Source: an uncultured Desulfobacterales bacterium
Lineage (GTDB): Bacteria > Desulfobacterota > Desulfobacteria > Desulfobacterales > SpSt-501
Length of the DNA: 64,000 nucleotides
Reading direction: 5' to 3'
Assembly (NCBI GenBank): GCA_938048455.1
Contig: CALIUY010000012.1
Coordinates: forward strand, 1 to 64,000
The notes below the pieces were generated by a model, which was given only the letters and a program-made list of their open reading frames with translations, searched no databases and was not told where the DNA came from. Both the position numbers and the translations under genes were made by a program. Positions 35,070 through 51,296 of this stretch are shown here, one piece after another; position 1 is the first letter of the stretch; each line of letters opens with the position of its first letter.

Positions 35070-36605
35070 TCATTTCTCGAGCTGGGTGTGCTGGTCGAAG
35101 TAGGTCAGCTCCAGGGGCGAGTTGATGACCCCTTTGAGCTTCTTCGTGTAGCCGATCGTCTCCTTGGTGACGAGGATCGGAATCTGCGGCACCTCCCGAT
35201 GGAGGATCTCCTGGGCGAGCTTGAGGTACTTGTCGCGCTCGGCCTGGACCGTGGCCTTGGTCAGCTTGTCCACGTAGTCGTCGAATTCCTTGTTCGAGTA
35301 GAAGATGCGGTTGTTGCCTTTGGGCACCCACTGCTCGCTGTGGTAGAGGGGGTAGAGGATCCAGCGGGCCTCGGCCGAGGAGGGCGCCCAGCCCAAAAGA
35401 AAGATTTCGACGTCGGTTTGGTCGACGGGCTTGCGGGTTGCGGCGAGATAGGCCGCCCACTCCATCGTTCCGAGGCTCACCTCGATTCCGGCCTGCTTCC
35501 ACTGCTGCTGCAAGGCCTGGGCCATTTCGTAGTCCTTGGGGTAGCGCCCCATGGGGCTGATGAAGCGGGCTTTCAGGCCGTTCGGGTAGCCCGCCTCGGC
35601 GAGGAGCTTCTTCGCTTTCTCGGGATCGTAGGGGTGGGACGGCAGCGGCACGTGGCCCGTAGTCCGCGGGGCGACGATGTTGCTCGCGACGAGGGCCCGG
35701 CCGCGGTAGAGGTTTCTCACGATCGATTCGCGGTCGGTGGCGAGGTTGAAGGCCTGGCGCACGCGCACGTCGGAGAACGGCTTCTTCTGGCAGTTGAAGC
35801 CGACGTAGAGCACACGCAGGGTCTCGGTCGAGTCGAGCTGGATGCGCGCATCCTTCTCGAGCCGCGGGATGTCCTCGGCGGGCAGCCGGACCGCCAGGTG
35901 CGCATCCCCCGACTGCAGCATCATGACGCGGGCTGCATCCTCTTTCACGGTCTTGACCACGATTTTGTCGAGCTTGGGTTTTCCGCCCCAGTAGGCGTCG
36001 TGGCGCGTGAGCGTCAGGTGGTCGCCGTGCACCCACTCGACGAACTTGAAGGGGCCGGTGCCGACCGGCTTGCGGGCGATGTCTTTGCCGAGCGCCTTGT
36101 GCGCCGTCGGGCTGCCGATCCCCGAGGCGCTGTGGGCGAGGTTGTTCAGGAAGAAGGCGAAGGGGGTCTTCAGATTCATGCGCACCGTGTGGGGATCGAC
36201 CACGGTCACCGATTCCACGAAGGGAGTGTAGAGGGCCGCGCGCGAGGGTTTTTCCGGGCCGAGCATGCGCTCGACGAAGTACTTCACCGCCTCGGCGTTG
36301 AAGGGGGTGCCGTCGTGGAAGTTCACCCCCTTGCGCAGAGAAAAGGTCCAGCTCAACCCGTCGGGGGCCTGTTCCCAGCGTTCGGCGAGACCCGGCACCA
36401 GATTGAGCTTGGCGTCGAACTTGACCAGGTTTTCGTAAATCATGCGGTTGACGGCCTCGGAGGGATTGCTCTCGGCGTTCGGGGGATCGAGGCTGTCGGG
36501 ATCCGCGCCGGCGGCGTAGATGACGGTCTGGGCCGAAGTCTCGCCGGCGCCGAAGGCGAGCAGGGCGGCCAAAAGCAGCGGCAACCACAGCAGAGTTCGT
36601 TTCAT
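35070..36605 (-). CDS. dppA: Peptide ABC transporter periplasmic binding protein DppA/OppA type
   Basis: 511 residues with a signal peptide (MKRTLLWLPLLLAALLAFGAGETSAQ). SBP_bac_5 fold: MIYENLVKFDAKLNLVPGLAERWEQAPDGLSWTFSLRKGVNFHDGTPF near 53-100, then GTGPFKFVEWVHGDHLTLTRHDAYWGG near 180. First gene of the operon dppA-dppB-dppC-dppD-dppF-iadA-hydrolase. Its downstream enzymes suggest a role in importing isoaspartyl or gamma-linked peptides. AGGAGG lies 9 bp before the ATG. Confidence 0.92.
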   Translation of the reverse strand: MKRTLLWLPLLLAALLAFGAGETSAQTVIYAAGADPDSLDPPNAESNPSEAVNRMIYENLVKFDAKLNLVPGLAERWEQAPDGLSWTFSLRKGVNFHDGTPFNAEAVKYFVERMLGPEKPSRAALYTPFVESVTVVDPHTVRMNLKTPFAFFLNNLAHSASGIGSPTAHKALGKDIARKPVGTGPFKFVEWVHGDHLTLTRHDAYWGGKPKLDKIVVKTVKEDAARVMMLQSGDAHLAVRLPAEDIPRLEKDARIQLDSTETLRVLYVGFNCQKKPFSDVRVRQAFNLATDRESIVRNLYRGRALVASNIVAPRTTGHVPLPSHPYDPEKAKKLLAEAGYPNGLKARFISPMGRYPKDYEMAQALQQQWKQAGIEVSLGTMEWAAYLAATRKPVDQTDVEIFLLGWAPSSAEARWILYPLYHSEQWVPKGNNRIFYSNKEFDDYVDKLTKATVQAERDKYLKLAQEILHREVPQIPILVTKETIGYTKKLKGVINSPLELTYFDQHTQLEK

Positions 36606-36703
36606 GGGAAACCTCCTTTCGCAGGGCTTGCAGGAATGGGGGGAGGCTTCCGAGGGTGCGAAGTCGGGCCCTCGTCCGCCGCGGAATTTTGGAACCTGGG
36701 CTG

Positions 36704-36732
36704 TCTATAGAAAATCGCCGCCGCGACTGCAA
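36704..36732 (-). promoter_or_regulatory. Candidate promoter for the dpp operon
   Basis: On the minus strand TTGCAG (36727-36732) and TATAGA (36704-36709) are 17 bp apart. The -10 keeps TATA and the -35 keeps TTG. It lies about 98 bp before dppA and back-to-back with the plus-strand promoter of the sulfonate operon. Confidence 0.4.
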
Positions 36733-36738
36733 GGGGTG

Positions 36739-36753
36739 CAAGGGGACCCCTTG
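36739..36753. promoter_or_regulatory. Perfect 7+1+7 palindrome (candidate operator)
   Basis: CAAGGGG-A-CCCCTTG is perfectly symmetrical, and an extra direct copy of the left arm lies at 36730-36736. It sits between the two divergent promoters and reaches the -35 of the plus-strand one. A dimeric repressor or activator site is likely; the regulator is not known. Confidence 0.55.
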
Positions 36754-36780
36754 ACAGGGATAACTGATATCTGATACATC
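36751..36780 (+). promoter_or_regulatory. Candidate promoter for the taurine/sulfonate ABC-sarD-tpa operon
   Basis: A consensus -35 TTGACA (36751-36756) is followed after 17-18 bp by a poor -10 around 36774-36780 (ATACAT/TACATC). It lies about 80 bp before the first ATPase gene. A weak -10 buried in a palindrome is typical of a regulated promoter. Confidence 0.45.
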
Positions 36781-36784
36781 AGAT
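36769..36784. promoter_or_regulatory. Palindromic operator, probably for the GntR/FCD regulator
   Basis: ATCTGAT-AC-ATCAGAT has two perfect 7-nt arms around a 2-nt centre and covers the presumed -10 region. The only GntR-family regulator in the window is encoded in this same operon. One arm plus centre, TGTATCAGAT, recurs exactly at 50994-51003 in the islA/TRAP intergenic region. Assignment to that regulator is inference. Confidence 0.55.
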
Positions 36785-36858
36785 GGCGTTCCGTACCGCC
36801 TCCCCGAACTTTTCCGTCCCCGGGGACCCGCGGCGTTTGCGGACGCGGAATTCGGCCC

Positions 36859-37614
36859 ATGAACCCTGCGGCTTCGGCTCCGGTCAAGATCGATGTGCGC
36901 GGTTTGACCAAGCGCTTCGGGGATCTGTTGGTCCTCGACAACATCTCCTTCCAGGTCGCTCGGGGCGAGTTTCTGGCGATCGTGGGACCGACCGGTTGCG
37001 GCAAGACCACCTTTCTCAACTGCCTCTCCAAGCTGATTCCGACGAGCGAAGGCGACATCTTCATCGACGGACGGGTCGCCGACCCTCGGGTGCACAACAT
37101 CTCCTTCGTCTTCCAGGAGCCGACCTGCCTTCCCTGGCGCACGGTGCGCGAAAACGTGGCCTACGGGATGGAGCTCAAGCGTTTCCCCGCGGAGAAGATC
37201 CGCGAGCGCGTGGATACCATGCTCGGCCTCGTGGGCCTGAGCGAGACCCAGCACCTCTACCCGAACCAGGTTTCGGCGAGCATGGTGCAGCGCATCACGG
37301 TCGCGCGCGCCTTCGCCGTGGACCCGGATCTGCTGCTGATGGACGAGCCTTACGGCCAGCTTGACGTCAAGCTGCGTTACTACCTCGAGGACGAACTCGT
37401 CAAGCTCTGGCAGACCTTGAAGGCGACGGTCATTTTCGTCACCCACAACATCGAGGAAGCCGTTTACGTGGCCGAGCGGATCCTTGTGCTGAGCAACAAG
37501 CCGACCCGGATCAAGGCCGAAGTGAAGGTCGATCTGCCGCGGCCGCGCAACCTGATCGACCCGGCCTTCGTCGCCATCCGCAAAGAGGTGACGGAGCTGA
37601 TCCGCTGGTGGTGA
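36859..37614 (+). CDS. Nitrate/sulfonate/taurine-type ABC transporter ATPase (first)
   Basis: 251 residues. Walker A GPTGCGKTTFLNCLSKL near 44, Q-loop FVFQEPTCLPWRTV near 84, Walker B LLLMDEPYGQLDVKLRYYLEDE near 155 and H-switch FVTHNIEEAVYVAERILVL. This is the TauB/SsuB/NrtD class. The signature, normally LSGGMRQR, reads VSASMVQR, which removes the glycine pair that contacts ATP in the partner subunit. It begins an operon that also encodes a second, canonical ATPase, so the two may form an asymmetric pair. Confidence 0.85.
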   Translation: MNPAASAPVKIDVRGLTKRFGDLLVLDNISFQVARGEFLAIVGPTGCGKTTFLNCLSKLIPTSEGDIFIDGRVADPRVHNISFVFQEPTCLPWRTVRENVAYGMELKRFPAEKIRERVDTMLGLVGLSETQHLYPNQVSASMVQRITVARAFAVDPDLLLMDEPYGQLDVKLRYYLEDELVKLWQTLKATVIFVTHNIEEAVYVAERILVLSNKPTRIKAEVKVDLPRPRNLIDPAFVAIRKEVTELIRWW

Positions 37615-37750: not shown

Positions 37751-38839
37751 ATGAAACGGACGGCGCTTTGTGCACTTCTGGCGGCAATCGCTCTCTTCGG
37801 GTCCTCCCTGCCTGCGGCGCAGGCCCAGGCGCCTTTCAAGCTCAAGATGAGCTGGCAGCCGGAACACGAAACCTTCTTTCCTTGGCTCGCCAAGCAGAAA
37901 GGATGGGACAAGCAGGAAGGCCTGGACTTCGAAATCACCTACTTCGATTCCGGCATGGCGCAGCTCGAGGCCTTGCCCGCCAAGCAGTGGGTGATCGGCG
38001 GGTTGGGGGGGGTTCCCATGGTGGTGGGCGCCCTGCGCTACAACGCCTACATGATCGGCCTCGGCAACGACGAGTCGATCACCAACAACGTCTACGTCCG
38101 TCCGGACAGCCCCATCTACAAGGTCAAGGGCTTCAACAAGCAGTTCCCCGAGGTCTACGGTTCGCCCGAGACGGTCAAAGGCAAGACCGTGCTCGTCACC
38201 ACCGTCTCCTCGGCGCACTACGCGCTCTCCATGTGGCTGGGCGTGCTCGGTCTCAAGGACAGCGACGTCGTCATCAAGCAGATGGACCAGGCCTCGGCCG
38301 TCGCGGCCTTTGAAAAAGGGATCGGCGACATCGTCGCCCTGTGGGCTCCGCACACCTATGCCGCGGAAGCCAAGGGCTACAAAAAGGTGGCCGATGTCCG
38401 CTCGACCGGCCGCGCTCTGCCGATCGTTCTGATCGGCGAGAAGGAATTCTGCGACAAGAACCCCGAGATCGTGGCCAAGTTCCTGCGCGTCTTTCTGCGG
38501 GGCGTCAACTTCCAGCTCAAACACGGCAGCCACCCCGAGGTCGTGAAGCTCTACCAGAAGTTCATGAAGGACTGGGGCGGGATGGACATCTCGGCGGAGA
38601 TGGCCAAGCTCGACATCGACAATCATCCGGTCTGGAACCTCGAAGAGCAACTCAAGCTCTTCGACGCCTCGAAAGGGATGAGCACGGCCCAGAAGTGGCA
38701 GACCCAGATCGCCGAGTTCTTTACCGCCCAGGGTCGCTTCAAGCCCGAGGAATTCGAAAAGGTCAAGGATTCGGCTTACGTGACCGACAAGTTCCTCAAA
38801 CAGGTCAAGAGCCCGATTCCGACCGACGATCTGAAGTAA
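37751..38839 (+). CDS. Periplasmic binding protein of the taurine/sulfonate-type importer
   Basis: 362 residues. Signal peptide MKRTALCALLAAIALFGSSLPAAQAQA, then an NMT1/SsuA-like type-2 binding fold: KLKMSWQPEHETFFPWLAKQKGWDKQEGL near 30-58, GGLGGVPMVVGAL near 82, TTVSSAHYALSMWLGVLGL near 150. It is longer than E. coli TauA (320). The ligand is inferred to be taurine from the downstream aminotransferase and reductase genes. Strong AAAGGAGG ribosome site. Confidence 0.83.
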   Translation: MKRTALCALLAAIALFGSSLPAAQAQAPFKLKMSWQPEHETFFPWLAKQKGWDKQEGLDFEITYFDSGMAQLEALPAKQWVIGGLGGVPMVVGALRYNAYMIGLGNDESITNNVYVRPDSPIYKVKGFNKQFPEVYGSPETVKGKTVLVTTVSSAHYALSMWLGVLGLKDSDVVIKQMDQASAVAAFEKGIGDIVALWAPHTYAAEAKGYKKVADVRSTGRALPIVLIGEKEFCDKNPEIVAKFLRVFLRGVNFQLKHGSHPEVVKLYQKFMKDWGGMDISAEMAKLDIDNHPVWNLEEQLKLFDASKGMSTAQKWQTQIAEFFTAQGRFKPEEFEKVKDSAYVTDKFLKQVKSPIPTDDLK

Positions 38840-38849
38840 CCCCCGAAGC

Positions 38850-38878
38850 CCCGGCGGGGGGCTCCTCCTCCCGCCGGG
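38850..38878 (+). other. Stem-loop after the binding-protein gene
   Basis: Arms CCCGGCGGG (38850-38858) and CCCGCCGGG (38870-38878) are perfectly complementary with an 11-nt loop and no following T-run. As in the dpp operon, it probably stabilises the upstream binding-protein transcript. Confidence 0.55.
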
Positions 38879-38915
38879 ATGTTCCTGGAGCCCGGATCCG
38901 AAGGGGGCCTGCGGG

Positions 38916-39710
38916 ATGGCCTACGAGGAAGTCAAGGTTCGAAAGCCGCTCGGGCTGATTCTTTTGCCGTTTTTTAGCATCTTCTGCTTTTTTGGCGCCT
39001 GGGAATTGATCGTGCGGCTGGGGATCGTGCCGGCGACCATGCTCGCCGCCCCGAGTGCGGTGGGAAATCTCTTCGTCGAAAAGCTCACCAACCCCAACCC
39101 CGACGGGGCGACGATTTTGGTTCATGCCTGGGTGAGCATGCAGGAAGCCTTTCTCGGCTATCTCCTCGCCCTCGGCATCGGGCTGCCGCTCGGGCTCTTC
39201 ATGGGCTGGTTCGGGGTCGTGCGCGGGATTGCGCGGCCGATCTTCGAGCTGATCCGGCCGATCCCCCCCATCGCCTGGATCCCGCTCACCGTGTTCTGGT
39301 TCGGCATCGGTCTCTGGGGCAAGGTCTTTATCATCTGGCTCGGCGGGGTGGTCCCCTGCGTGATCAACGCCTTCGTGGGGGTGCGCATGACGAACCCCAC
39401 GTTGATCCAGATGGCGCGCACCTACGGCGCCTCGGACTGGCAGATCTTCAAGACCCTGTGCGTCCCCTCCGCCCTGCCCATGGTCTTTGGGGCCCTGCAG
39501 ATCGCGCTTGCCAGCTGCTGGACGAATCTGGTCGCCGCCGAGCTCCTCGCCGCCGACCAGGGCCTGGGGTATCTCATCACCATGGGACGAAGGCTTGCGC
39601 TGCCGGACATGGTGGTGCTCGGTATGGTGTCGGTGGGGGTCATGGGGGCCCTCATCGGGATGGTGATCGACCAGGTGGAAAAACGGCTCCTCGCCGGCAT
39701 CCGGAGGTAG
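38916..39710 (+). CDS. Taurine/sulfonate-type ABC transporter permease (first)
   Basis: 264 residues and about six helices of the SsuC/TauC class. Markers: GIVPATMLAAPSAVGNLFVEK near 32, GYLLALGIGLPLGLFMGW near 78, ELIRPIPPIAWIPLTVFWFGIG near 110 and the ATPase-contact loop MARTYGASDWQIFKTLCVPSALPMVFGALQIAL near 167-200. It is followed 3 bp later by a second permease of the same class, so the pore is probably a heterodimer. Confidence 0.87.
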   Translation: MAYEEVKVRKPLGLILLPFFSIFCFFGAWELIVRLGIVPATMLAAPSAVGNLFVEKLTNPNPDGATILVHAWVSMQEAFLGYLLALGIGLPLGLFMGWFGVVRGIARPIFELIRPIPPIAWIPLTVFWFGIGLWGKVFIIWLGGVVPCVINAFVGVRMTNPTLIQMARTYGASDWQIFKTLCVPSALPMVFGALQIALASCWTNLVAAELLAADQGLGYLITMGRRLALPDMVVLGMVSVGVMGALIGMVIDQVEKRLLAGIRR

Positions 39711-39713
39711 GCG

Positions 39714-40595
39714 ATGGTCGAGATGGAAGAGGGGATCCAGCGCCTGGGTCGGCAGGACCGCTCGATCGCCAACGAAGTGCAGAAGAGCGTGCGCGAACGG
39801 CGGCCGCTCACGCTGCGCCGGGTGATCACCAACGAGTATTTCCTGCACGTCGTCTCCTCGGCCGCGTTTCTTTATCTCTGGCACGAAGTGGCGGCGAGCG
39901 GCGTCTTCAAGGGCGGGCTGTGCACCCCGTGGGAGGTGGTGGTCCGCTTCCGCGGCCTGCTCACCGACACGCTCGCCGGCCTCACCCTCTGGGGACACAT
40001 CGGGGCGAGCGCGCAGCGGATCGCCATCGGCTTCGTTCTCGCCTCGGTGGTCGCCATCCCGCTCGGCCTCTTCATGGCGCTCAACCCTTACGTGAACGCC
40101 GTCGTCAAGCCCGTCTTCGACATCTTCAAGCCCATGCCGCCGATCGCCTGGGTGTCGATCGCCATTCTCTGGTTCGGGGTGGGCGAGGAATCGAAGATCT
40201 TCATCATTATCATCGGCACCTTCGTCCCGTGCCTCCTGAACGCTTACAACGGGATCCGCCTGATCGAGCCCGAGCTCTACGACGTGATCAAGGTGCTCGG
40301 GGGCAAGCGCTGGAACGAGATCCTCCAGGTGAGTTTCCCCGCTTCCTTCCCGGCCATTTTCGCGGGGTTGCAGATCTCGCTCTCGCTTGCCTGGACCTGC
40401 GTGCTCGCCGCCGAGCTCGTCGCCTCGCGCTCGGGGCTGGGATTCATCATCGTTCAGGGCATGAAATTCACCGACGCCGCGCTCGTGATCGGCGGCATGG
40501 TGATGATCGCCCTGGTCGCCTGGGTCTCCTCGCTCCTGATCGCCGGGCTCGAAAAACTGCTCTGCCCCTGGCGGCGGGACATCCGCGACCTGTGA
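39714..40595 (+). CDS. Taurine/sulfonate-type ABC transporter permease (second)
   Basis: 293 residues with a roughly 45-residue charged cytoplasmic N-terminus not found in the first permease. Typical motifs: GLCTPWEVVVRF near 65, GFVLASVVAIPLGLFMALNPYVNAVVKPVFDIFKPMPPIAWVSIAILWFGVG (about 103-155) and VLGGKRWNEILQVSFPASFPAIFAGLQISL near 195. It probably pairs with the preceding permease. Confidence 0.87.
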   Translation: MVEMEEGIQRLGRQDRSIANEVQKSVRERRPLTLRRVITNEYFLHVVSSAAFLYLWHEVAASGVFKGGLCTPWEVVVRFRGLLTDTLAGLTLWGHIGASAQRIAIGFVLASVVAIPLGLFMALNPYVNAVVKPVFDIFKPMPPIAWVSIAILWFGVGEESKIFIIIIGTFVPCLLNAYNGIRLIEPELYDVIKVLGGKRWNEILQVSFPASFPAIFAGLQISLSLAWTCVLAAELVASRSGLGFIIVQGMKFTDAALVIGGMVMIALVAWVSSLLIAGLEKLLCPWRRDIRDL

Positions 40596-40615: not shown

Positions 40616-41374
40616 ATGACCGCCAAGATCGAATGCCGCCACATCTCGAAGGTCTTCATCCAGAAGGGAAAACAGCGGGTGCACGTGCTCGAGGACATCT
40701 CGCTTGCCGTGCGCAACAACGAATTTTTGGTCATCTTGGGCCCCGGGCAGTCGGGCAAGAGCACGCTCTTGCGCATCATCGCCGGGCTGGAGACGCCGAG
40801 CGAAGGCCAGGTGTTGCTGGACGGCCGGCCGGTCACCGGCCCCGGTCCCGACCGCGGGCTCGTGTTCCAGAGCTACATGCTTTTCCCTTGGAAGACGGTT
40901 TTCGGCAACGTGGAGCTCGGACCCCGTCTGCGCGGGGTGCCGCGGGAGGAGCGGCGGCGCATCGCTCAGCACTACATCGAGCTCGTGGGGCTCGGCGGGT
41001 TTGAAAAACACTACCCCCACCAGCTGAGCGGCGGCATGAAACAGCGCGTGGGGATCGCTCGGGCTTACGCCAACAACCCGCAGGTGATGCTGCTTGACGA
41101 GCCCTTCGGGCAGCTCGACGCCCAGACGCGCTACTTCATGGAGAAGGAGACGGCCCGCATCTGGGAGACCGAAAAGCGAACCGTCCTTTTTGTGACGAAC
41201 AACATCGACGAGGCGATCTTTCTGGGAGACCGCATCGTCACGTTGAAGGGCAAGCTTCCCGGCCGCATGGACCGGCTCTGGGAGGTGAACCTCCCGCGGC
41301 CGCGGGAGCACACCGATATGGCGTTTTTGAAGTTGCGCCATACGATCACCGCCGCGTGCGAGCTGACGCTTTGA
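40616..41374 (+). CDS. Taurine/sulfonate-type ABC transporter ATPase (second)
   Basis: 252 residues from the ATG at 40616 (the frame is open further upstream). Walker A GPGQSGKSTLLRIIAGL near 43, Q-loop LVFQSYMLFPWKTVFGNVELG near 82, canonical signature LSGGMKQRVGIARAYANNPQ and Walker B VMLLDEPFGQLDAQTRYFMEKE. TauB/SsuB class. In the H-loop position it has FVTNNIDEA where FVTHDxxEA is usual, so the switch histidine is Asn. Together with the first ATPase (degenerate signature, intact H-loop) this suggests one good and one defective ATP site. Confidence 0.87.
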   Translation: MTAKIECRHISKVFIQKGKQRVHVLEDISLAVRNNEFLVILGPGQSGKSTLLRIIAGLETPSEGQVLLDGRPVTGPGPDRGLVFQSYMLFPWKTVFGNVELGPRLRGVPREERRRIAQHYIELVGLGGFEKHYPHQLSGGMKQRVGIARAYANNPQVMLLDEPFGQLDAQTRYFMEKETARIWETEKRTVLFVTNNIDEAIFLGDRIVTLKGKLPGRMDRLWEVNLPRPREHTDMAFLKLRHTITAACELTL

Positions 41375-41448
41375 CTCTTTTCCGGTCGTTCTCGGAAGCG
41401 GGCCTGCGGTTCCGAGGGGAGAGCGGCCGGGGATGGGAGGAGATGAAG

Positions 41449-42603
41449 ATGGCCCCCTTTTGTTTTGAGACGATGCCGCGGATCCGTTTCGGCGCGGGAA
41501 GCCTGGAGACCCTCGGCGAGGAGGTGCGGCGGCTGGAGGGAAACCGGGTCTTCGTCGTCACCGACCCGGGAATCGTCAAGGCGGGAGTGCTCGAAGCGGT
41601 GAAAGGCGTGCTCCACAAGGCGGGCCTTTCCGTCACGGCCTTCACCGAAGTCCAGTCCGATCCGAGCCTGGAGGTGGCCCAGGCTTGCGTTCAGACCGCC
41701 AAGATCGCGCGACCCGAGGTCATCGTGGGGTTGGGGGGCGGAAGCTCGCTCGACATCGCCAAGGTCGCCGCGGTGATGATCCCCAACGAGGGGCCGATCG
41801 AGGCCTATTTCGGCATGGAGCTCGTCCCCCGGCCGGGGGTGCCGCTGATCCTGATCCCCACGACGGCCGGCACGGGAAGCGAGATGACCTCGATCAGCGT
41901 CCTTTCGGACACCCGCAACCAGGTGAAAAAAGGAATCGTCAGCCGCCACCTGTTCGCGCGCGCGGCGATCCTCGATCCTCTGCTCACGCTCGAGCTGCCG
42001 CAGCGGGTTACGGCCATGACCGGGATGGACGCCTTGGTCCACGCGATCGAATCCTATGTCGGCGTGCGGGCGACCGTATTCACCGACACGCTCAACCTGC
42101 AGGCGATCCGCCTCGTCGCCGGCAATCTGCGACAGGCCTTCGCGAACGGCCGCAACGTCGCCGCCCGCGAAAACATGCTCTATGCTTCCTGCATCGCGGG
42201 CATGGCCTTCTCGAACACCCAGAACGGGCTGGATCACGCGCTGGCGCTCGCCGTGGGCGGAAAATATCACCTGCCCCACGGCCTGCTGACGGCCTTCATC
42301 CTGCCCTGGGTGATGGAGTTCAACGCCATCGCCGTGCCCCACAAGTTCGCGCGGATCGCCGCAGCCTTCGGGGAACCTGTGGAAAGCCTTTCGGAACTTG
42401 AAGCCGCGCGGTGCGCCGTCCAGGCGGTCCGGGGGCTGCTGGCCGACCTGGGGATTTCCTCCCGGCTGGGGGACTACGGGGTGAGCCGCCAGGACATTCC
42501 GGCGATCGCGCGGGCCGCTTTAGGGGCGACGCGGCTGATCGGCAACAATCCGCGGACCGTCAGCGAGGCGGATGTGGTCGGCATGCTGGAAAACAACTTT
42601 TGA
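41449..42603 (+). CDS. sarD: Iron-dependent alcohol dehydrogenase, probable sulfoacetaldehyde reductase SarD
   Basis: 384 residues of the Fe-ADH family. Cofactor motif GLGGGSSLDIAKVAAVM near 92, ITTAGTGSE-like IPTTAGTGSEMTS near 136. The four expected metal ligands are Asp194, His198, His263 and His277, equivalent to FucO. I use the ATG at 41449 with GGGAGG 8 bp upstream; an ATG two codons earlier is too close. In Bilophila SarD, also an Fe-ADH, reduces sulfoacetaldehyde to isethionate with NADH. Placement between a taurine-type importer and Tpa makes this role the best inference; other aldehydes cannot be excluded. Confidence 0.82.
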   Translation: MAPFCFETMPRIRFGAGSLETLGEEVRRLEGNRVFVVTDPGIVKAGVLEAVKGVLHKAGLSVTAFTEVQSDPSLEVAQACVQTAKIARPEVIVGLGGGSSLDIAKVAAVMIPNEGPIEAYFGMELVPRPGVPLILIPTTAGTGSEMTSISVLSDTRNQVKKGIVSRHLFARAAILDPLLTLELPQRVTAMTGMDALVHAIESYVGVRATVFTDTLNLQAIRLVAGNLRQAFANGRNVAARENMLYASCIAGMAFSNTQNGLDHALALAVGGKYHLPHGLLTAFILPWVMEFNAIAVPHKFARIAAAFGEPVESLSELEAARCAVQAVRGLLADLGISSRLGDYGVSRQDIPAIARAALGATRLIGNNPRTVSEADVVGMLENNF

Positions 42604-42644: not shown

Positions 42645-44012
42645 ATGTCGGATGCCAGTCGAAACGAGAGCCTGGACGCCGAAACCATTCGTCGCTACGA
42701 GGCCGAGTACGTGATGACCCCCTGGACGGCGCAGAGAGGGCTCAAGCCTTTCGTCGCCGTCGAGGGCAAGGGATGCTGGGTGAAAAACCCCGAGGGCCGG
42801 AAATTTCTCGATTTTACCTCCCAGTTCGTGTTCGTGAACCTCGGGCACTGCGACGATCGCGTGAACGCCGCCATCGCCCGCCAGGCTGCACGGCTGCCGA
42901 GCGTCAACTCCCAGTGGGCGACCGAGCCCAAGGCGCGGCTGGGCAAACTCCTGGCCGAGGTCACCCCCGGCGACCTGAAGAAGTCCTTTTTCTCGACGGG
43001 CGGCACGGAAGCGAACGAAGGGGCGGCCAAGATCGCCCGCTGGGTGACCGGAAAGCAGAAGATCCTCTCCCGCTGGCGTTCCTACCACGGCTCGACCATG
43101 GGGGCGATGGCCCTGTCGGCCGACTACCGCAACTGGTGCGCCGAGCCCTCCGTGCCGGGGGCGATCCACATTCTTCCCCCCTACTGTTACCGCTGCAGCT
43201 TCGGGGCGACCTATCCCTCCTGCGACATCCAGTGTGCGAAACACGTGGAAGAGGTGGTCCGCCTCGAGGGCGGAGCGCGACGGGTGGCGGCGATCATCGG
43301 CGAGCCCATCTTCGGCGCGGGCGGGATCATCGTGCCGCCGGACGAATACTGGCCGATGGTGCGGGCGATCTGCGACAAATACGAAATGGTGTTGATCGCC
43401 GACGAAGTCATGACCGGCTTCGGTCGCACGGGCAAATGGTTCGGGATGGACCACTGGAACGTCGTTCCCGACATCCTCACCATGGCCAAGGGCATCAACT
43501 CGGGCGCGGTGCCGCTCGGGGCGACGATCGTGCGGCCCTGGATCGCCGAGAAATTCGAAACCACGCCCTACCTCCACGGCCACACCTACTCCGGGCACGC
43601 GCTTGCCATGGCCGCGGCGGTGGCGGCGATCGAGGCCTACCGGGAGGACCGGCTCATCGAGCGGGCGGCCGAGACGGGCGCCTATCTGATGACGCGGCTG
43701 AGGGAAATCCAGGACAAGCACCCCTGCGTGGGCGAGGTCCGCGGCAAGGGGCTTTTCTGCGGCATCGAAATTGTGAAGAACCGCAAGACGAAAGAGCCCA
43801 TCCACGAAGCGTTGATGGAACCGCCGCGGCCGGGGACCGCCAAGATGACCTTTCTGGCGAAGTGTATGGAGGAGGGGGTCTACATCATGGCCGGAGGCGC
43901 CTCGGTGATCATGATCAGCCCGCCGCTCACCATCACGAAGGAGGAGCTCGATTTCGGCCTCGAGGTGATCGATCGGAACCTGGCGATCTGCGACGCCGAG
44001 GTCGAGAAATAA
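42645..44012 (+). CDS. tpa: Taurine:pyruvate aminotransferase Tpa
   Basis: 455 residues, class III PLP aminotransferase. FFSTGGTEANEGAAKIARWVTG near 116-138, SYHGSTMGAMALS near 148, IADEVMTGFGRTGKWFG near 250 and the PLP lysine at residue 282 in TMAKGINSGAVPLG. It transfers the amino group of taurine to pyruvate, giving sulfoacetaldehyde and alanine. Length and internal motif CYRCSFGATYPSCDIQC fit the Bilophila-type enzyme as I know it; other omega-amino acid:pyruvate transaminases look similar. Context with SarD-, IslA- and sulfonate-importer-type genes supports Tpa. AGAGGAGG ribosome site. No alanine dehydrogenase gene lies nearby to recycle alanine. Confidence 0.85.
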   Translation: MSDASRNESLDAETIRRYEAEYVMTPWTAQRGLKPFVAVEGKGCWVKNPEGRKFLDFTSQFVFVNLGHCDDRVNAAIARQAARLPSVNSQWATEPKARLGKLLAEVTPGDLKKSFFSTGGTEANEGAAKIARWVTGKQKILSRWRSYHGSTMGAMALSADYRNWCAEPSVPGAIHILPPYCYRCSFGATYPSCDIQCAKHVEEVVRLEGGARRVAAIIGEPIFGAGGIIVPPDEYWPMVRAICDKYEMVLIADEVMTGFGRTGKWFGMDHWNVVPDILTMAKGINSGAVPLGATIVRPWIAEKFETTPYLHGHTYSGHALAMAAAVAAIEAYREDRLIERAAETGAYLMTRLREIQDKHPCVGEVRGKGLFCGIEIVKNRKTKEPIHEALMEPPRPGTAKMTFLAKCMEEGVYIMAGGASVIMISPPLTITKEELDFGLEVIDRNLAICDAEVEK

Positions 44013-44040: not shown

Positions 44041-44793
44041 ATGCTCGAGCAGCGCTCGCTCCGCGAGCAGGTCTACGACTACCTGCGCCAGGAGCTGACC
44101 CGGGGAAAACTGATTCCCGGGGCGGCGGTGAACCTGAACGAGATCAGCCGGCAGCTGGGGATCAGCAAGACCCCCCTGCGCGACGCCCTGCTGCAGCTTG
44201 ACACCGAGGGCTTCGTCACCATCTGCCCGCGCCGGGGGGTCTTTGTCAACCGGTTGACCCTCGAGGATATCCGCAACATCTACGAGATCATCGGCGCGCT
44301 CGAGACGACCGTCATCCTCGCCGTCTTCGACAACGTGCAGCCGCTGCATCTCGAGCGCATGAAGGCGCTCAACCGCGAGCTGCGCGCCATGATCAAGAAA
44401 GGCGATTTCCAGGGCTACTACGAGGGCAACATTCTGTTCCACAGCGTGTTCCTGGACCTTTCGCACAACGAGATGCTCAAGCGCATCATTGCGCCCATGA
44501 AGCGGCGCCTCTACGATTTCCCGCGCCGCGGCTATATCCGGGAGTGGGAGTTGAGCAATTGCCGCGATCATGAACGGCTGATCGAGGCTTTCGAGAACGG
44601 CGACCGGGGGATGGCGGCCCATGTCTGGCGCGACGTCCACTGGTCGTTCGAGGCCCAAGAGAAACAGATCCGGCGCTTTTATTTCGCCGAGGGGGCCGAT
44701 GCCCGCAGACCCGCCTCCCCGGGCGCTCCGGACGAGCATGTCTGCATCACCCTCTCCCGCAGCGCCCGCCGCGCGCGTTCCCGCGCCGTCTGA
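44041..44793 (+). CDS. GntR-family regulator with FCD ligand-binding domain
   Basis: 250 residues. Winged helix at about 5-70 (LREQVYDYLRQELTRGKLIPG, LNEISRQLGISKTPLRDALLQLDTEGFV) and an all-helical FCD domain at about 80-220 with candidate metal-binding histidines in NILFHSVFLDLSHNEML and HERLIEAFENGDRGMAAHVWRDVH. FCD regulators sense small carboxylic or sulfonic acids and bind short palindromes. It is co-transcribed with tpa and ackA, pointing to control of taurine or isethionate use. The ATG at 44041 has AAGGAG 8 bp upstream. Confidence 0.88.
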   Translation: MLEQRSLREQVYDYLRQELTRGKLIPGAAVNLNEISRQLGISKTPLRDALLQLDTEGFVTICPRRGVFVNRLTLEDIRNIYEIIGALETTVILAVFDNVQPLHLERMKALNRELRAMIKKGDFQGYYEGNILFHSVFLDLSHNEMLKRIIAPMKRRLYDFPRRGYIREWELSNCRDHERLIEAFENGDRGMAAHVWRDVHWSFEAQEKQIRRFYFAEGADARRPASPGAPDEHVCITLSRSARRARSRAV

Positions 44794-44807: not shown

Positions 44808-46022
44808 ATGGCGATTCTCACGATCAACGCCGGCAGCTCGTCGGTCAAATTCACGCTCTTCCTCGGCGACGACGACGCCCCGCGCGCCTCCGGCATCGTC
44901 GAACGGATCGGCCTCGAAGGAACGCGCCTCCAGTACCGGCGCGCGGACGGAAAGACGATCGTCTCCCCCGTCGTCGTCGCCGACGCCGACCGTGCGGTGG
45001 AGGTGATTCTCTCCGCCCTCGTCCACCCCGAGCACGGGGGGATCGGCGGGGTCAGGGAGATCGAGGCCGTGGGGCACCGCGTGGTCCACGGCGGCGAGCG
45101 GCTGACCCGTCCCGTCGTCGTGGATGCCGAGGTCCGGGCGTATCTCGAATCGATCGTGCCGTTAGCGCCGCTGCACAACCCGCACCATTTGCGCGGGATC
45201 GCCGCCTGCGAGCGGCATATTCCGCACGCCGTGCAGGTCGCCGTCTTCGATACGGCGTTTCATGCGACCCTGCCGCGCCACGCCTTCCTCTACGGCATCC
45301 CCCCGGCGTTTTACGCCGAAGACGGCGTCCGGCGCTACGGGTTCCACGGCATCAGCCATAAGTACGTGGCCGCCGAAGCGGCGCGCTTCCTGGGCCGGGC
45401 CCCTGCGGGGCTGCGGCTCGTCACCTGCCATCTGGGAAACGGCTGCAGCCTGACCGCGGTGCGCGACGGGCGAAGCGTGGACACGAGCATGGGCTTCACC
45501 CCCCTCGAGGGGGTGCTCATGGGGACCCGCAGCGGGGACATCGACCCGGCGGCCGTGCTGTACTTGATGGAGCGCCGGGGGTTTTCGACCGCGGCGATGA
45601 ACGATCTCTTGAATCGGCAGAGCGGGCTTCTCGGCTTGGCCGGTGTCGGCAGCAACGACGTGCGCGATGTCCTGTCGGCGGCGCGCAACGGAAACGCCCA
45701 GGCCGAGCTCGCCGTGGAGATGTTCTGCTACCGCATCCGCAAAACGATCGGCGCCTACGCGGCTGTGCTGGGAGGGCTGGATGCGGTGGTGTTCACGGCA
45801 GGGATTGGGGAAAATTCGCCCGAGATCCGGCGGCGCATCACCGCCGGTCTGGAATTTCTGGGGCTTTTTCTGGATGCGGAACGCAACGAGGCCGCGGCCT
45901 CGGGACCGCGCGCCATCCACGCCGCGAAAAGCCCTGTGGCCTTGCTCGTCATTCCCACCAACGAAGAACTGGAAATCGTCCGCGAGACGCGCCGGGCGCT
46001 GGCGGCCCGGACCGGTGCCTAA
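44808..46022 (+). CDS. ackA: Acetate kinase AckA
   Basis: 404 residues. ASKHA fold with ILTINAGSSSVKF near 3-15, VGHRVVHGGERL near 86, VAVFDTAFHATLP near 145, YGFHGISHKYVA near 178, CHLGNGCSLTAVRDGRSVDTSMGFTPLEG near 207-235 and FTAGIGENSPEIR near 328. It makes ATP and acetate from acetyl phosphate, the energy-yielding last step of the taurine/isethionate pathway whose phosphotransacetylase is in the BMC operon. Last gene of the operon, followed by a terminator. Confidence 0.96.
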   Translation: MAILTINAGSSSVKFTLFLGDDDAPRASGIVERIGLEGTRLQYRRADGKTIVSPVVVADADRAVEVILSALVHPEHGGIGGVREIEAVGHRVVHGGERLTRPVVVDAEVRAYLESIVPLAPLHNPHHLRGIAACERHIPHAVQVAVFDTAFHATLPRHAFLYGIPPAFYAEDGVRRYGFHGISHKYVAAEAARFLGRAPAGLRLVTCHLGNGCSLTAVRDGRSVDTSMGFTPLEGVLMGTRSGDIDPAAVLYLMERRGFSTAAMNDLLNRQSGLLGLAGVGSNDVRDVLSAARNGNAQAELAVEMFCYRIRKTIGAYAAVLGGLDAVVFTAGIGENSPEIRRRITAGLEFLGLFLDAERNEAAASGPRAIHAAKSPVALLVIPTNEELEIVRETRRALAARTGA

Positions 46023-46036
46023 AAAAGGATGCCCCT

Positions 46037-47458
46037 TCAGCCCGGCGAAGGCCCCCCCCCGGCGGGGGCCTTCGTTTTGCCCGCGCGCTGCAGTTTGCGG
46101 AACACGGTCGAGCGATCCACACGCAGCGCCGCGGCGGCTTTGGCCATCGAGCCGTGGGCCGAGAGCGCGCCGGTGAGGATCTCCGCCTCGATCTCCTGCA
46201 GGATTTCCTTGAGCGATTTTCCCCGGGTCTCCAGGCTTTCGTAGAGGTTGCGCGCGCGGCCGGCGTCGTCGTTGAGCATGCAGGAGTTGAGATCGGCGGC
46301 CTCGATCACCGGGCGGTCGCAGGTGACGACCACGCTTTCGATCAGGTTCTCGAGCTCGCGGATGTTTCCCGGCCAGCGATGGGAGAGAAAGGCCTTCTCG
46401 ACCTCCGGGGCGAAGCGGAGCTCCTTGCGGTATTTGAGCGCGTATTTGCGCAGGAAGTACTCGGCCAGCGGCAGAATGTCCTCGCGGCGCTCGCGCAGCG
46501 GAGGCACGTGCAGCACGGCGACGCGCAAGCGGAAATAGAGGTCGCTGCGGAAGCGGCCCTGCTCGATTTCCTTTTCCAGATCGCGGTTCGTCGCCGCCAG
46601 GATCCGCACGTCGACCCGCTTGACCCGGGTGGAGCCGACGGGGATGATCTCCTGGTCCTGGAGCAGTCGCAGCAGCTTGACCTGCATTCCGGGCGGCAGT
46701 TCCCCGATCTCGTCGAGGAAGAGGGTCCCGCCGTCGGCCATCTCGCAGAGGCCGGGTTTGCCCTTCACGTTCGCCCCGGAGAAGGCCCCCGCCGCGTAGC
46801 CGAAGAGCTCGGACTCGATCAGGTTCTCCGGGATGGTCGCGCAGTCGAGCTTGAAGAAGGTGCGATCGCTGCGGGGGCTGGCGCGGTGGATGGCGCGGGC
46901 GATGAACTCCTTGCCGACCCCGGTCTCGCCCAGGATGAGCACCGTCGCGTCGGTGGCGGCGACTTTTTCGATGAGCTTGTTCAGCTGGGCCATCTCGCGG
47001 CTGCGGAAGCTGCCGAGGGGGAAGCGCTGGAAGGTCTCCTCGGTGATGTATTGCACGTTGGTGCGCAGCTGTTCCAAGAGTTTTTTCTGCGCGGCGATCT
47101 GCTCGCGGAGCTGGCTCATCACGGTGACGTCGCGCACGAAGGTCACCACCAGGGCGACCCGTCCTTCGGCGTCGAAAATCGGGTGTCCGCTCAGGATGAG
47201 CTTCTGGCCCTTCTTGGTCGTCTGCACCGAGGTCGCGGGCTGACCGGTCTTGACGATCGTGGGATTGAGCACGACGTCGAAGACGCCGTCCCGGACCAGA
47301 TCCTGAACGCGTTTTCCGACGAGCTCCTCCTTTTTGAGGCCGATCAGCTTTTCGTACATCGTGTTGACCTTGAGGGTGTAGCCCTCGCGGTCCGAGATGT
47401 AGATCCCGTCGCTCAACACGTCGAGGATGCGGTCGATGTAAGGCTCGATCGGCTCCAT
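46037..47458 (-). CDS. PAS-containing sigma-54-dependent activator
   Basis: 473 residues. A PAS domain (about 8-120: VLSDGIYISDREGYTLKVNTMYEKLIG), the sigma-54 AAA+ domain (about 145-375: Walker A GETGVGKEFIARAIH, the GAFTGA loop reading GAFSGA, Walker B GTLFLDEIGEL, arginine-finger region) and a C-terminal Fis-type HTH (about 430-460: MAKAAAALRVDRSTVFRKLQ). It opens sigma-54 promoters on sensing a signal through PAS. Three such promoters lie in this locus, in front of the TRAP, islAB and BMC operons, so it is their likely activator. Convergent with ackA. Confidence 0.92.
   Translation of the reverse strand: MEPIEPYIDRILDVLSDGIYISDREGYTLKVNTMYEKLIGLKKEELVGKRVQDLVRDGVFDVVLNPTIVKTGQPATSVQTTKKGQKLILSGHPIFDAEGRVALVVTFVRDVTVMSQLREQIAAQKKLLEQLRTNVQYITEETFQRFPLGSFRSREMAQLNKLIEKVAATDATVLILGETGVGKEFIARAIHRASPRSDRTFFKLDCATIPENLIESELFGYAAGAFSGANVKGKPGLCEMADGGTLFLDEIGELPPGMQVKLLRLLQDQEIIPVGSTRVKRVDVRILAATNRDLEKEIEQGRFRSDLYFRLRVAVLHVPPLRERREDILPLAEYFLRKYALKYRKELRFAPEVEKAFLSHRWPGNIRELENLIESVVVTCDRPVIEAADLNSCMLNDDAGRARNLYESLETRGKSLKEILQEIEAEILTGALSAHGSMAKAAAALRVDRSTVFRKLQRAGKTKAPAGGGPSPG
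46046..46078 (+). terminator. Intrinsic terminator after ackA
   Basis: Perfect 11-bp stem (46046-46056 with 46064-46074) and 7-nt loop followed by TTTTG on the plus strand. It overlaps the last codons of the convergent regulator gene. Confidence 0.65.
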
Positions 47459-47562: not shown

Positions 47563-48879
47563 TCAGGCGCGCAGCATCTGGGGCAGCCAGGTCGCCAGCG
47601 ACGGAAAAACGAGAATGCACGCCGCTCCCAGCACTTGGAGGCCCATGAACTGGATCATGCCGACGTAGATGTCCTGCAGGCTCCATTCGGGGACCACCCC
47701 CTTCAGGAAATAGGCGGAAAGGGCAACCGGCGGGGAGAGCCACGCGGTCTGAAGCGTCACGGCGACGAGCGTGCAGAACCAGACCAGGTTGTAGCCCATT
47801 TCGCGCACCATGGGCATGAGGATCGGAATGATGATCAAGACGATGGGGATCCACTCGAGCGGCCAGCCGAGAACGAAGATCAACGCCATGACCGCGATCA
47901 ACATGATCATGGGGTCAAGTTTCATGTCGAGGAGCAGGTGCGTGAGCATCGTCGCCGACCCCAGCCGGGAGAAGACCGCACCGAAGAAGTTCGAGGCCGC
48001 GCACAGGAGCAAAATCATGGCCGAGATCTCGACCGTGCGATACATCGAGGAGCGCAGGCTCGAAAACGTCATGCGGCGGTAGACCAGGGAGAGAACCAGC
48101 GAGCCGATCGCCCCACAGGCCGCCCCCTCCGTGGGGGTGGCGACCCCGAACATGATCGTGCCGAGCGTGGCCAAAATCACGATCGTGACCGGAAGCACCC
48201 CGAGGATGAACTCTTTGAGCAGCCAGACGGCGGAGGGAGCGTGCATCTCCGGAGGAAGGGCGGGACCCAGCGCGGGGTTCATCCGGCAGCGGATCAGGCA
48301 GTAGCCGCAGTAAAGAGCGGCAAGCAGGATTCCCGGAAAGATCGCCGCGGCGAAGAGGTCGGTCACGGGAACCCCGACCACGGGTCCCATGACCACGAGC
48401 ATGATGCTCGGGGGAATGAGGATGCCGAGGGTCCCTCCCGCCGTGATGCAGCCCGCCGAAAGGCGCACGTCGTACTTGCTTTGCCGCATGGTCGGTCCGG
48501 CCATGACCCCAAGCAGCGTGACCGAGGAGCCGACGATGCCGGTCGCCGCGGCGAAGATCGTCGAGGTGGCGGTGACGGCGATGTAGAGCGAGCCGTGCAC
48601 GCGGGCGAGGAGCAGCTGGAACGCGCGGAAAAGGCGCTCCATCAGCCCTGAGCTCTCCAGGAGGTAGCCCATGAAGAGGAAGAAAGGCACCGCGGCCAGC
48701 ACCTGCTCGTTCATGATCGCGTAGACCTGCAGCGTCATCAGGTGAAAGACCACGGGGCCGATCCCGATGTAGCCCACCACCAGCCCCAGGAAAAGCAAGG
48801 TGAAGGCGATGGGAAAGCCGACGAAGATGAAGACGAACAGGGAGCCGAGCGCCACCAGCCCCAGAATTTCCGGACTCAT
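47563..48879 (-). CDS. dctM: TRAP transporter large permease DctM (isethionate-type)
   Basis: 438 residues with about 12 membrane segments. Typical DctM motifs: FVGFPIAFTLLFLGLVVGYIG near 20, VLAAVPFFLFMGYLLESSGLM near 60, ATGIVGSSVTLLGVMAGPTM near 110, LGILIPPSIMLVVMG near 147 and a final PEWSLQDIYVGMIQFMGLQVLGAACILVFP. It is the sodium-driven permease of the tripartite importer. Position beside islA and a shared sigma-54 control suggest isethionate as substrate, as for the IseKLM/DctPQM transporters of isethionate users. Confidence 0.9.
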   Translation of the reverse strand: MSPEILGLVALGSLFVFIFVGFPIAFTLLFLGLVVGYIGIGPVVFHLMTLQVYAIMNEQVLAAVPFFLFMGYLLESSGLMERLFRAFQLLLARVHGSLYIAVTATSTIFAAATGIVGSSVTLLGVMAGPTMRQSKYDVRLSAGCITAGGTLGILIPPSIMLVVMGPVVGVPVTDLFAAAIFPGILLAALYCGYCLIRCRMNPALGPALPPEMHAPSAVWLLKEFILGVLPVTIVILATLGTIMFGVATPTEGAACGAIGSLVLSLVYRRMTFSSLRSSMYRTVEISAMILLLCAASNFFGAVFSRLGSATMLTHLLLDMKLDPMIMLIAVMALIFVLGWPLEWIPIVLIIIPILMPMVREMGYNLVWFCTLVAVTLQTAWLSPPVALSAYFLKGVVPEWSLQDIYVGMIQFMGLQVLGAACILVFPSLATWLPQMLRA

Positions 48880-48900
48880 CGTGTCCTTCCTCCTTCCCGG

Positions 48901-49500
48901 TCAAGTCTCGGAGCCGACCGGCTCTTCGATCAGGCTGACCCCGGTTCGGGCCGCATAGAGGGCCTTGAGCAGCTCGGAGACTCCCTGGATCAAGAGCAGA
49001 AGCGTCGCGACAGGGATGGCGAGCTTTTGAGGCCAGATGATCGGCATCCAGGGGCTGGTGACGATGCGCTCGTTGAAAAGCACGGAGCGGTAGGCGAACT
49101 CGGAGCCGATGTAGAGAAAAAAGAGCAGCGCCGGAAAGTAGAGACCGAGGTAGCAGGCGGCGTCCACCATCCCGCGCGTGCGGATCGACCATTTGCCGTA
49201 GAGAAAGTCGGTGCGGATGTGCTGCTGGCGCTGCAGGGCGTAGGCCGAGCCCAGCATGAAGAAGGCGCCGTAAAGGATCTGGCTGATGTCGCCGGCCCAG
49301 ATGGTGGGGGCGTTGAAGACGTAGCGGGCGATCACCTCGTAGACCAGGCTGAGGGACATGGGGAGAATCAACCAGGCGATGATCTTGCCGCTTGCGATGC
49401 TGATACGATCGATCGTCCCAATCACGCGGGCGAGACCGGGCGGCGCGTTGTGCAGGCCGCCGCAGGGTGCGCCTTGTTTTTTATCCTCTGCTTCGTTCAT
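48901..49500 (-). CDS. dctQ: TRAP transporter small permease DctQ
   Basis: 199 residues with four membrane helices. DctQ marks: IIAWLILPMSLSLVYEVIARYVFNAPTIWAGDISQILYGAFFMLGSAYAL (about 43-92) and HIRTDFLYGKWSIRTRGMVD. It is a structural partner of DctM. Preceded by an intrinsic terminator that separates it from dctP, so its expression depends on read-through. Confidence 0.9.
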   Translation of the reverse strand: MNEAEDKKQGAPCGGLHNAPPGLARVIGTIDRISIASGKIIAWLILPMSLSLVYEVIARYVFNAPTIWAGDISQILYGAFFMLGSAYALQRQQHIRTDFLYGKWSIRTRGMVDAACYLGLYFPALLFFLYIGSEFAYRSVLFNERIVTSPWMPIIWPQKLAIPVATLLLLIQGVSELLKALYAARTGVSLIEEPVGSET

Positions 49501-50836: not shown

Positions 50837-50852
50837 TGCAACAAACAGGCCA
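50837..50852 (-). promoter_or_regulatory. Sigma-54 (-24/-12) promoter of the TRAP operon
   Basis: Minus-strand TGGCCTGTTTGTTGCA against consensus TGGCACGnnnnTTGCW. The essential GG and GC are 12 bp apart and the whole TTGCA is present; only two other positions differ. It leaves a leader of about 127 nt before dctP. Confidence 0.8.
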
Positions 50853-51028
50853 TGAAAATTAATGTCTCAAGATCTCAGGGGGACGACAGCACGAGCATGT
50901 TCCGCGCCGTAAAAATTATATAATACTGATTTTATTAAATCTATTTTATTCCGTCTTTCGGCGCGGCGCTTCCGAAAACGATTGAGACCGATTTGTATCA
51001 GATGCTATGCACGATAAAAAATATTTTT

Positions 51029-51064
51029 GTTGTAATAATGCAACTATAGCTGCAAAAACGCAAC
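51029..51064. promoter_or_regulatory. Two dyad sites, candidate enhancer for the sigma-54 activator
   Basis: GTTGTAATAATGCAAC (51029-51044) and GCTGCAAAAACGCAAC (51049-51064), spaced 20 bp start to start (two helical turns), match the dyad GYTGCA-N4-TGCARC. They are about 180-210 bp upstream of the TRAP promoter and about 220-250 bp upstream of the islA promoter, normal enhancer distances. Similar sites occur before the BMC operon. Confidence 0.65.
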
Positions 51065-51280
51065 AAATATTTTCGTGTAATCATCTTCCCCGCCCCAAAA
51101 CCAACCTTTATTGTTTCCAAATTGCACTTATTTTGAGCCAGCGGAACCTTTCGGCCCGTAAGGTGAAGGATAGGCAACTACAGGAATTTCTTTTTGTGCC
51201 CTTCCTTTCATCGCCGCAGGAGGCCGTCGGCCGCAAGAATGCAGCCTATCCTTACCTGCCGGCCGGCAAAGGCGATTTTG

Positions 51281-51296
51281 AGGCACGGTATTTGCT
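51281..51296 (+). promoter_or_regulatory. Sigma-54 (-24/-12) promoter of islAB
   Basis: AGGCACGGTATTTGCT matches TGGCACGnnnnTTGCW at every position except the first. GG (51282-51283) and GC (51294-51295) have the required 12-bp offset. Transcription should start near 51307, giving a leader of about 72 nt before islA. Confidence 0.85.

Follow-up and report, generated by a model that had tools for sequence, protein, structure and literature searches.

The window, the whole stretch of DNA analysed here, comprises 64,000 nucleotides from an uncultured Desulfobacterales bacterium. A taurine/sulfonate operon lies on its forward strand. The first gene, ssuB1 (36859-37614), encodes a sulfonate/taurine-type ABC transporter ATPase. 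It is followed at 37751-40595 by genes for an ssuA-like binding protein (37751-38839) and two permeases (38916-39710 and 39714-40595), then by a second ABC ATPase (40616-41374), a sulfoacetaldehyde reductase-like Fe-ADH (SarD-like, 41443-42603) and a class-III aminotransferase (42660-44012). The latter is probably the taurine-pyruvate aminotransferase Tpa (PF00202, E 7e-101). The starts of these last three genes are inferred. The SarD-like protein scored 463 bits against NF050025, under the model cut-off of 700. Next come the genes for a GntR/FCD regulator, the proposed repressor (44041-44793), and the acetate kinase AckA (44808-46022), both on the forward strand.

On the reverse strand, 46037-47458 encodes a PAS-sigma54 activator (enhancer-binding protein), a candidate regulator of the isl/TRAP promoters. 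The ORF at 47915-49192 has no Pfam match. The isethionate sulfite-lyase IslA is encoded at 51379-53874 on the forward strand; its best PDB chains are 5ymr (1414 bits) and 7kq3 (1362 bits), the latter named 'Isethionate sulfite-lyase', then 6lon (1230 bits). The top NCBIfam model for 51379-53874 is HpsG, (2S)-3-sulfopropanediol dehydratase (1589 bits), a model that seems to take in IslA too.

The GntR/FCD protein

A GntR/FCD regulator is encoded within the operon, as a preliminary description of this DNA had it. The product of 44041-44793 contains an N-terminal GntR wHTH domain (PF00392, E 1.7e-15) and a C-terminal FCD domain (PF07729, E 1.4e-18), both exceeding the gathering score, and so has the domain content of the FadR subfamily. 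The aminotransferase-like C-terminal domain of TauR/MocR proteins is absent, with the FCD domain in its place. Among 54 homologues from loci that bear the site described below, the FCD-pocket residues N130, H134, H177 and H200 are kept in 52, 54, 54 and 52, respectively. The His residues of this N/H/H/H pocket have a putative metal role. The nearest solved relative by sequence is 3sxy (also 3fms; E 2.4e-18), which we take to be TM0439 of Thermotoga maritima (PMC4494728).

The palindrome and its putative promoter

The preliminary description placed a perfect palindrome at 36769-36784, and it is present there: 7-bp arms, ATCTGAT and ATCAGAT, flank AC (ATCTGATACATCAGAT). With up to 2 mismatches allowed, TCTGATAYATCAGA occurs at a single place in the whole assembly (3,381,821 bases). 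ATCTGATNNATCAGAT is found at one place in the assembly without mismatch and at 65 places with ≤3 mismatches. The predicted GntR operator, TGATATCTGATACATCAGAT, spans 36765-36784 with the palindrome as its core. Its left outer TGAT is present, while the right outer ATCA is absent and replaced by GGCG. An operator matrix was built from 43 distinct sites, all outside the window's genus, which themselves score 20.5 to 48.9. At 33.1 the window site falls inside this range from other genera. The same-genus genome G020 (locus L006) keeps the operator as ATCTGATACATCAGTT, with one change. In another same-genus genome, G227, an exact operator lies upstream of an amidohydrolase gene (L137, 9412-9427, contig C24), and its right flank, GGCA, is like that of the window.

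The distance from the palindrome to the start codon of the first operon gene (36859) is 74 bp, and the palindrome had been said to overlap a presumed -10. A candidate -35, TTGACA, is found at 36751-36756 on the forward strand in the same arrangement as in relatives, and is kept in G020. With a spacer of 16-18 nt it places the -10 (TACATC/GATACA) in the operator centre. A strict sigma-70 scan of 36600-36870 found no promoter. The overlap is thus plausible from the TTGACA box but not from the strict scan, and a -10 at the palindrome is supported because relatives show the same -35 spacing. An FNR-like box was considered and rejected; the FNR box needs 4 nt between its arms, and the arms here are 2 nt apart.

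A dyad array between the TRAP genes and islA

The 10-mer TGTATCAGAT, by sequence half of the GntR operator, recurs on the forward strand at 50994-51003, as had been described. This part of the window, 50984-51128, holds four dyads of near-constant spacing between two candidate sigma-54 promoters, and can be viewed as a candidate activator array. The first dyad (50984-50999) is imperfect, with a left arm GAGACC, a spacer GATT and a right arm TGTATC, and this right arm consists of the first six letters of the 10-mer. The second and third (51029-51044 and 51049-51064) are GTTGCA-N4-TGCAAC-like, lie 20 bp apart and are candidate activator sites. The fourth is a dyad-like sequence, GTTTCCAAATTGCACT, at 51113-51128. 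A candidate -24/-12 promoter of islA, GGCACGGTATTTGC, is located at 51282-51295 on the forward strand; it fits the GG-N10-GC pattern and has a counterpart in 4/4 same-genus regions, the window included. A candidate divergent sigma-54 promoter of the TRAP genes, GGCCTGTTTGTTGC, is at 50838-50851 on the reverse strand, with a pattern match in the window and G227 (2/4).

The spacing of the dyads is maintained in the four same-genus genomes. The first and second are separated by 45, 45, 45 and 47 bp (window, G020, G227 and G229), the second and third by 20 bp in 4/4, and the third and fourth by 64, 63, 62 and 62 bp. TGTATC in the 10-mer can therefore be read as the right arm of the first dyad, a putative site for the sigma-54 activator (46037-47458) at the divergent isl/TRAP promoters, with the remaining AGAT incidental. 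We lean slightly towards this reading. The constant spacing and the candidate promoter before islA in all four genomes argue for it, as do the first dyads of G227 and G229, which match GTTGCA-N4-TGCAAC at 8/12 positions. Against it, the first dyad of the window is weak (left arm GAGACC, 6/12 by hand count), and isl regions at a greater distance show few clear dyads. Because TGTATC falls in the first of four constantly spaced dyads, the 10-mer more likely belongs to a sigma-54 activator array, and the array, the candidate sigma-54 promoters and the encoded activator together favour a separate sigma-54 circuit for isl/TRAP.

Conservation of the predicted operator

The genomes of the class were examined for the GntR protein and the site. 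Homologues of the protein were found in 69/389 genomes at E≤1e-25, and exact copies of ATCTGATAYATCAGAT in 23/389, at 24 places overall. The reversed control of ATCTGATAYATCAGAT was found in 0/389. A hand-made intersection gave 21/23 exact-site genomes that also encode a GntR homologue (Fisher p 1.9e-15). In 14 of these 21 the site and the GntR match share a contig and lie within about 11 kb of each other (by hand); in the remaining 7 the site is on another contig, directly before xsc in 5 of them. G035 and G078 have an exact site and no GntR match. In G035 a glycosyltransferase gene is close to the site, and in G078 the site is flanked by genes like those for cytidylate kinase and D-Ala-carboxypeptidase; we take both as chance occurrences. 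The exact 16-mer is lacking in 48/69 GntR-bearing genomes, many of which show a site with 1-2 mismatches.

Loci around GntR homologues were then scanned for the palindrome, with 200 arm-permuted palindromes as controls. Exact ATCTGATNNATCAGAT is present in 16/83 loci (permuted mean 0.01, maximum 1), and a site at ≤1 mismatch in 37/83 (permuted mean 0.255, maximum 3). The 83 loci include three that were fetched for the site (L137, L142 and L143) and four that were placed to reach known sites (L106, L110, L115 and L126); minus those seven the counts are 9/76 and 30/76. The flanks that the sites have in common extend the consensus to 24 bp, TGATATCTGATAYATCAGATATCA.

A held-out search covered 395 genomes of the phylum for a GntR homologue at E≤1e-60. 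Two genomes outside the class, G760 and G474, encode one, and 2/2 carry the site, neither having contributed to the matrix. G760 has a perfect 24-bp consensus before gntR-tpa. G474 has one site before xsc-tpa-ald-gntR and a second beside gntR.

Genes behind the predicted operator

A site with ≤2 mismatches and an accepted centre is found in 48/81 loci and none in 33/81, in part because contigs are short. In 37 of the 48 site-bearing loci the site is followed within 330 bp by gntR (18), xsc (15), a tpa-like gene (3), gdh (3) or an ABC ATPase gene (1). The usual arrangement has xsc, tpa, ald, gntR and ackA, in this order, behind the site, and the predicted targets are for the most part xsc-tpa-ald, gdh-tpa-ssu and gntR. 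Five loci have an aldehyde dehydrogenase gene behind the site, three a gene for a FAD-GcvT protein and seven a membrane transporter gene divergent from gntR, which indicates that the regulon is not made up of taurine genes alone.

Several of these genes deserve separate description. Glutamate dehydrogenases of two kinds occur within taurine loci, an NAD-GDH type and an NADP-specific type (L043, L051 and L055, cluster C26; L106, L115 and L126, cluster C15), and they suggest that the amino group may be handled in a way that does not involve alanine dehydrogenase. The FAD/GcvT protein has a dimethylglycine-dehydrogenase-like architecture (L118 4648-7092, L122 4995-7439, L123 5779-8241 and L042 3899-6343) and is a recurrent candidate target of the GntR operator; in L042 the operator precedes an ETF-ubiquinone-oxidoreductase gene that is itself ahead of the FAD/GcvT gene. 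Its substrate may be an N-methylated taurine or another methylamine. In seven loci (L094, L100, L107, L112, L119, L121 and L127) gntR-ackA is divergent from a Mem_trans-family transporter gene with one operator between them, and this transporter is a candidate exporter in the GntR regulon.

Many sites have a TTGAC(A) -35 box 15-18 nt upstream, and in oriented copies of the site a TTGACA-like box is commonest 16-18 nt before the 16-mer. At least 4/6 TTGACA letters were found at 16, 17 and 18 nt in 20, 8 and 11 of 77 copies, compared with 0-8 at the remaining offsets examined. Divergent sites are counted both ways and near-identical relatives are included, so that the copies are not independent. 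A -35 box at that spacing means that the operator covers the -10, and a -10 in mid-operator with a normal spacer fits repression by occlusion.

The palindrome could instead belong to a different regulator, or be a structural element, and simply accompany taurine operons. That some sites precede non-taurine genes would fit this. We consider it quite unlikely, as the site precedes gntR itself in 18/48 site-bearing loci, site and GntR co-occur strongly in a genome set that was unselected, and no other regulator cluster approaches that of gntR, which has 76 members in 74 loci against 6 for the largest activator cluster (in loci that were chosen for gntR). The ORF caller behind these cluster sizes is greedy and overlooks genes in GC-rich loci, L006 among them.

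The 10-mer shared with the islA promoter

The preliminary description proposed that one GntR repressor also controls islA through the 10-mer. The 10-mer is found twice in the window and in 0 of 100 dinucleotide shuffles. The whole-genome count that had been called for gave 3 places, the two window copies plus a third within a coding frame of contig C27. Taking the 680-bp dctP-islA intergenic region alone, the probability of a shared 10-mer by chance is about 0.003, and the expectation in the shuffled whole window is 0.063, so a coincidence at islA would be somewhat unusual.

The copy at islA is a half-site only, since the other half matches 1/7 letters (by hand). The operator matrix scores -5.0 at the 10-mer, under background, and 6.2 at best in the whole dctP-islA intergenic region; neither a full palindrome nor a score in the training range was found there. 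The 10-mer is not conserved as such. At the aligned place in the same gene order, the closest relative G020 has TGTTTCAAAA, G227 has TGTACCGATT and G229 has TGTATCACAT, and the half-site is absent from all 21 other islA-homologue upstream regions, these three included. Of the 22 such regions 1 scores ≥20, that of G024 at 24.2. G024 is without a GntR match, and its same-genus relatives G025 and G028 score 17.2 and 8.4.

The 10-mer at islA was accordingly rejected as a GntR site on account of its low matrix score and its loss from the islA promoters of relatives. That a single GntR repressor ties the taurine operon to isl/TRAP through palindrome and half-site is very unlikely: the exact 10-mer in the right intergenic region and an aligned TGTATCA in G229 speak for it, while the half-site, its score, its absence in relatives, its overlap with a different dyad array and the independent regulation described for the taurine and isl clusters of Bilophila (PMC8667426) leave the link unsupported. 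The bridge from the GntR operator to islA is probably not real.

Proposed regulation

An autoregulated GntR/FCD repressor of dissimilatory taurine genes that acts at ATCTGATACATCAGAT and runs this one operon, with isl/TRAP separate under sigma-54, is the reading we prefer, at a probability of roughly 0.8. Several findings weigh against it: the 48/69 GntR-bearing genomes without the exact 16-mer, the 33/81 loci without an accepted site, the TGAT/ATCA boxes in place of TKGT/ACMA, the negative sigma-70 scan, the missing right outer ATCA of the window site, and the sites ahead of genes with no obvious tie to taurine. It is strongly supported by co-occurrence, position and the held-out relatives that the palindrome is the predicted operator of the operon's own GntR/FCD protein. 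As judged from the genome comparisons, the palindrome of the preliminary description is a genuine operator, with firmer support and a wider distribution than was claimed. Very probably a repressor docks there to switch taurine-degradation genes in many sulfate-/sulfite-reducing bacteria.

We infer the following steps. A dimer of GntR, a FadR-subfamily protein, would bind the palindrome over the -10 of the TTGACA promoter and block transcription of ssuBACC-ssuB-sarD-tpa-gntR-ackA. A taurine-breakdown intermediate or substrate would release GntR from the operator. With gntR inside the operon that it would control, the circuit would be autoregulated. The GntR regulon in this genome would consist of the taurine operon alone. 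The isl/TRAP genes would be run by sigma-54 and the adjacent activator, and the 10-mer there would not be a GntR site.

Sulfide production in sediments and guts is fed by the respiration of taurine, a process whose enzymes are known. With a 24-bp operator and a probable cognate gene, its regulation becomes testable, and the operator could serve as a marker for taurine operons in unassigned genomes.

Comparison with known systems

In the open-access literature that we searched, neither the anaerobic Tpa-Xsc pathway of sulfate reducers nor their Tpa-SarD pathway has a described regulator or operator. Literal operator strings gave no relevant regulator paper among the matches listed. TGATATATCA appears in a paper on TroR of Treponema denticola; with nothing to tie it to these operons, this candidate was set aside.

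According to the passages of PMC4494728 that we drew on, FadR-subfamily operators usually have TKGT/ACMA boxes with 2-3 nt between GT and AC. NanR and BioR are members with other motifs, so TKGT/ACMA is common and not strictly defining. The boxes here are TGAT/ATCA. The same passages describe the class of UxuR, HypR and PrpR. As in that class, the regulator here has wHTH and FCD domains, the palindrome is even with 2 nt between its boxes, and the site overlaps or adjoins the promoter and in many cases precedes the gene of the regulator itself. Unlike that class, it has TGAT/ATCA boxes, outer TGAT/ATCA repeats that extend the consensus to 24 bp, and taurine targets (PMC4494728). TM0439 of Thermotoga maritima is the closest solved relative by sequence alone.

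TauR of Rhodobacter and Sinorhizobium is described in the portion of PMC5320631 consulted as an activator of the MocR subfamily with a PLP aminotransferase-like sensor, which binds direct repeats. It resembles the regulator here in its GntR-type DNA-binding domain and governs tpa, xsc and tau transport (PMC5320631). The present regulator differs from it in its FCD domain and in its predicted operator, a palindrome over the -10. With an FCD in place of an aminotransferase-like domain, the protein would be a taurine-pathway regulator, yet no TauR. The balance tips a little towards a lineage-wide FCD-type taurine regulator, with a sensor domain unrelated to that of MocR-type TauR and an unusual four-box TGAT/ATCA operator over the -10. 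Such a regulator would control dissimilatory taurine metabolism class-wide, extend to at least two genomes outside, and be kept through the change of the desulfonation step from Xsc to SarD-Isl, with the Isl half under a separate sigma-54 circuit.

In Taurinivorans the taurine enzymes are abundant whatever the electron acceptor, as the excerpt of PMC10507020 used here reports. The portion of PMC8667426 used here does not mention GntR and names no regulator or operator for tpa/sarD. It describes a split in Bilophila wadsworthia like that in the window, with tpa/sarD on one side and islAB-BMC on the other, and reports that the tpa/sarD and islAB clusters are regulated independently, which agrees with the split seen here.
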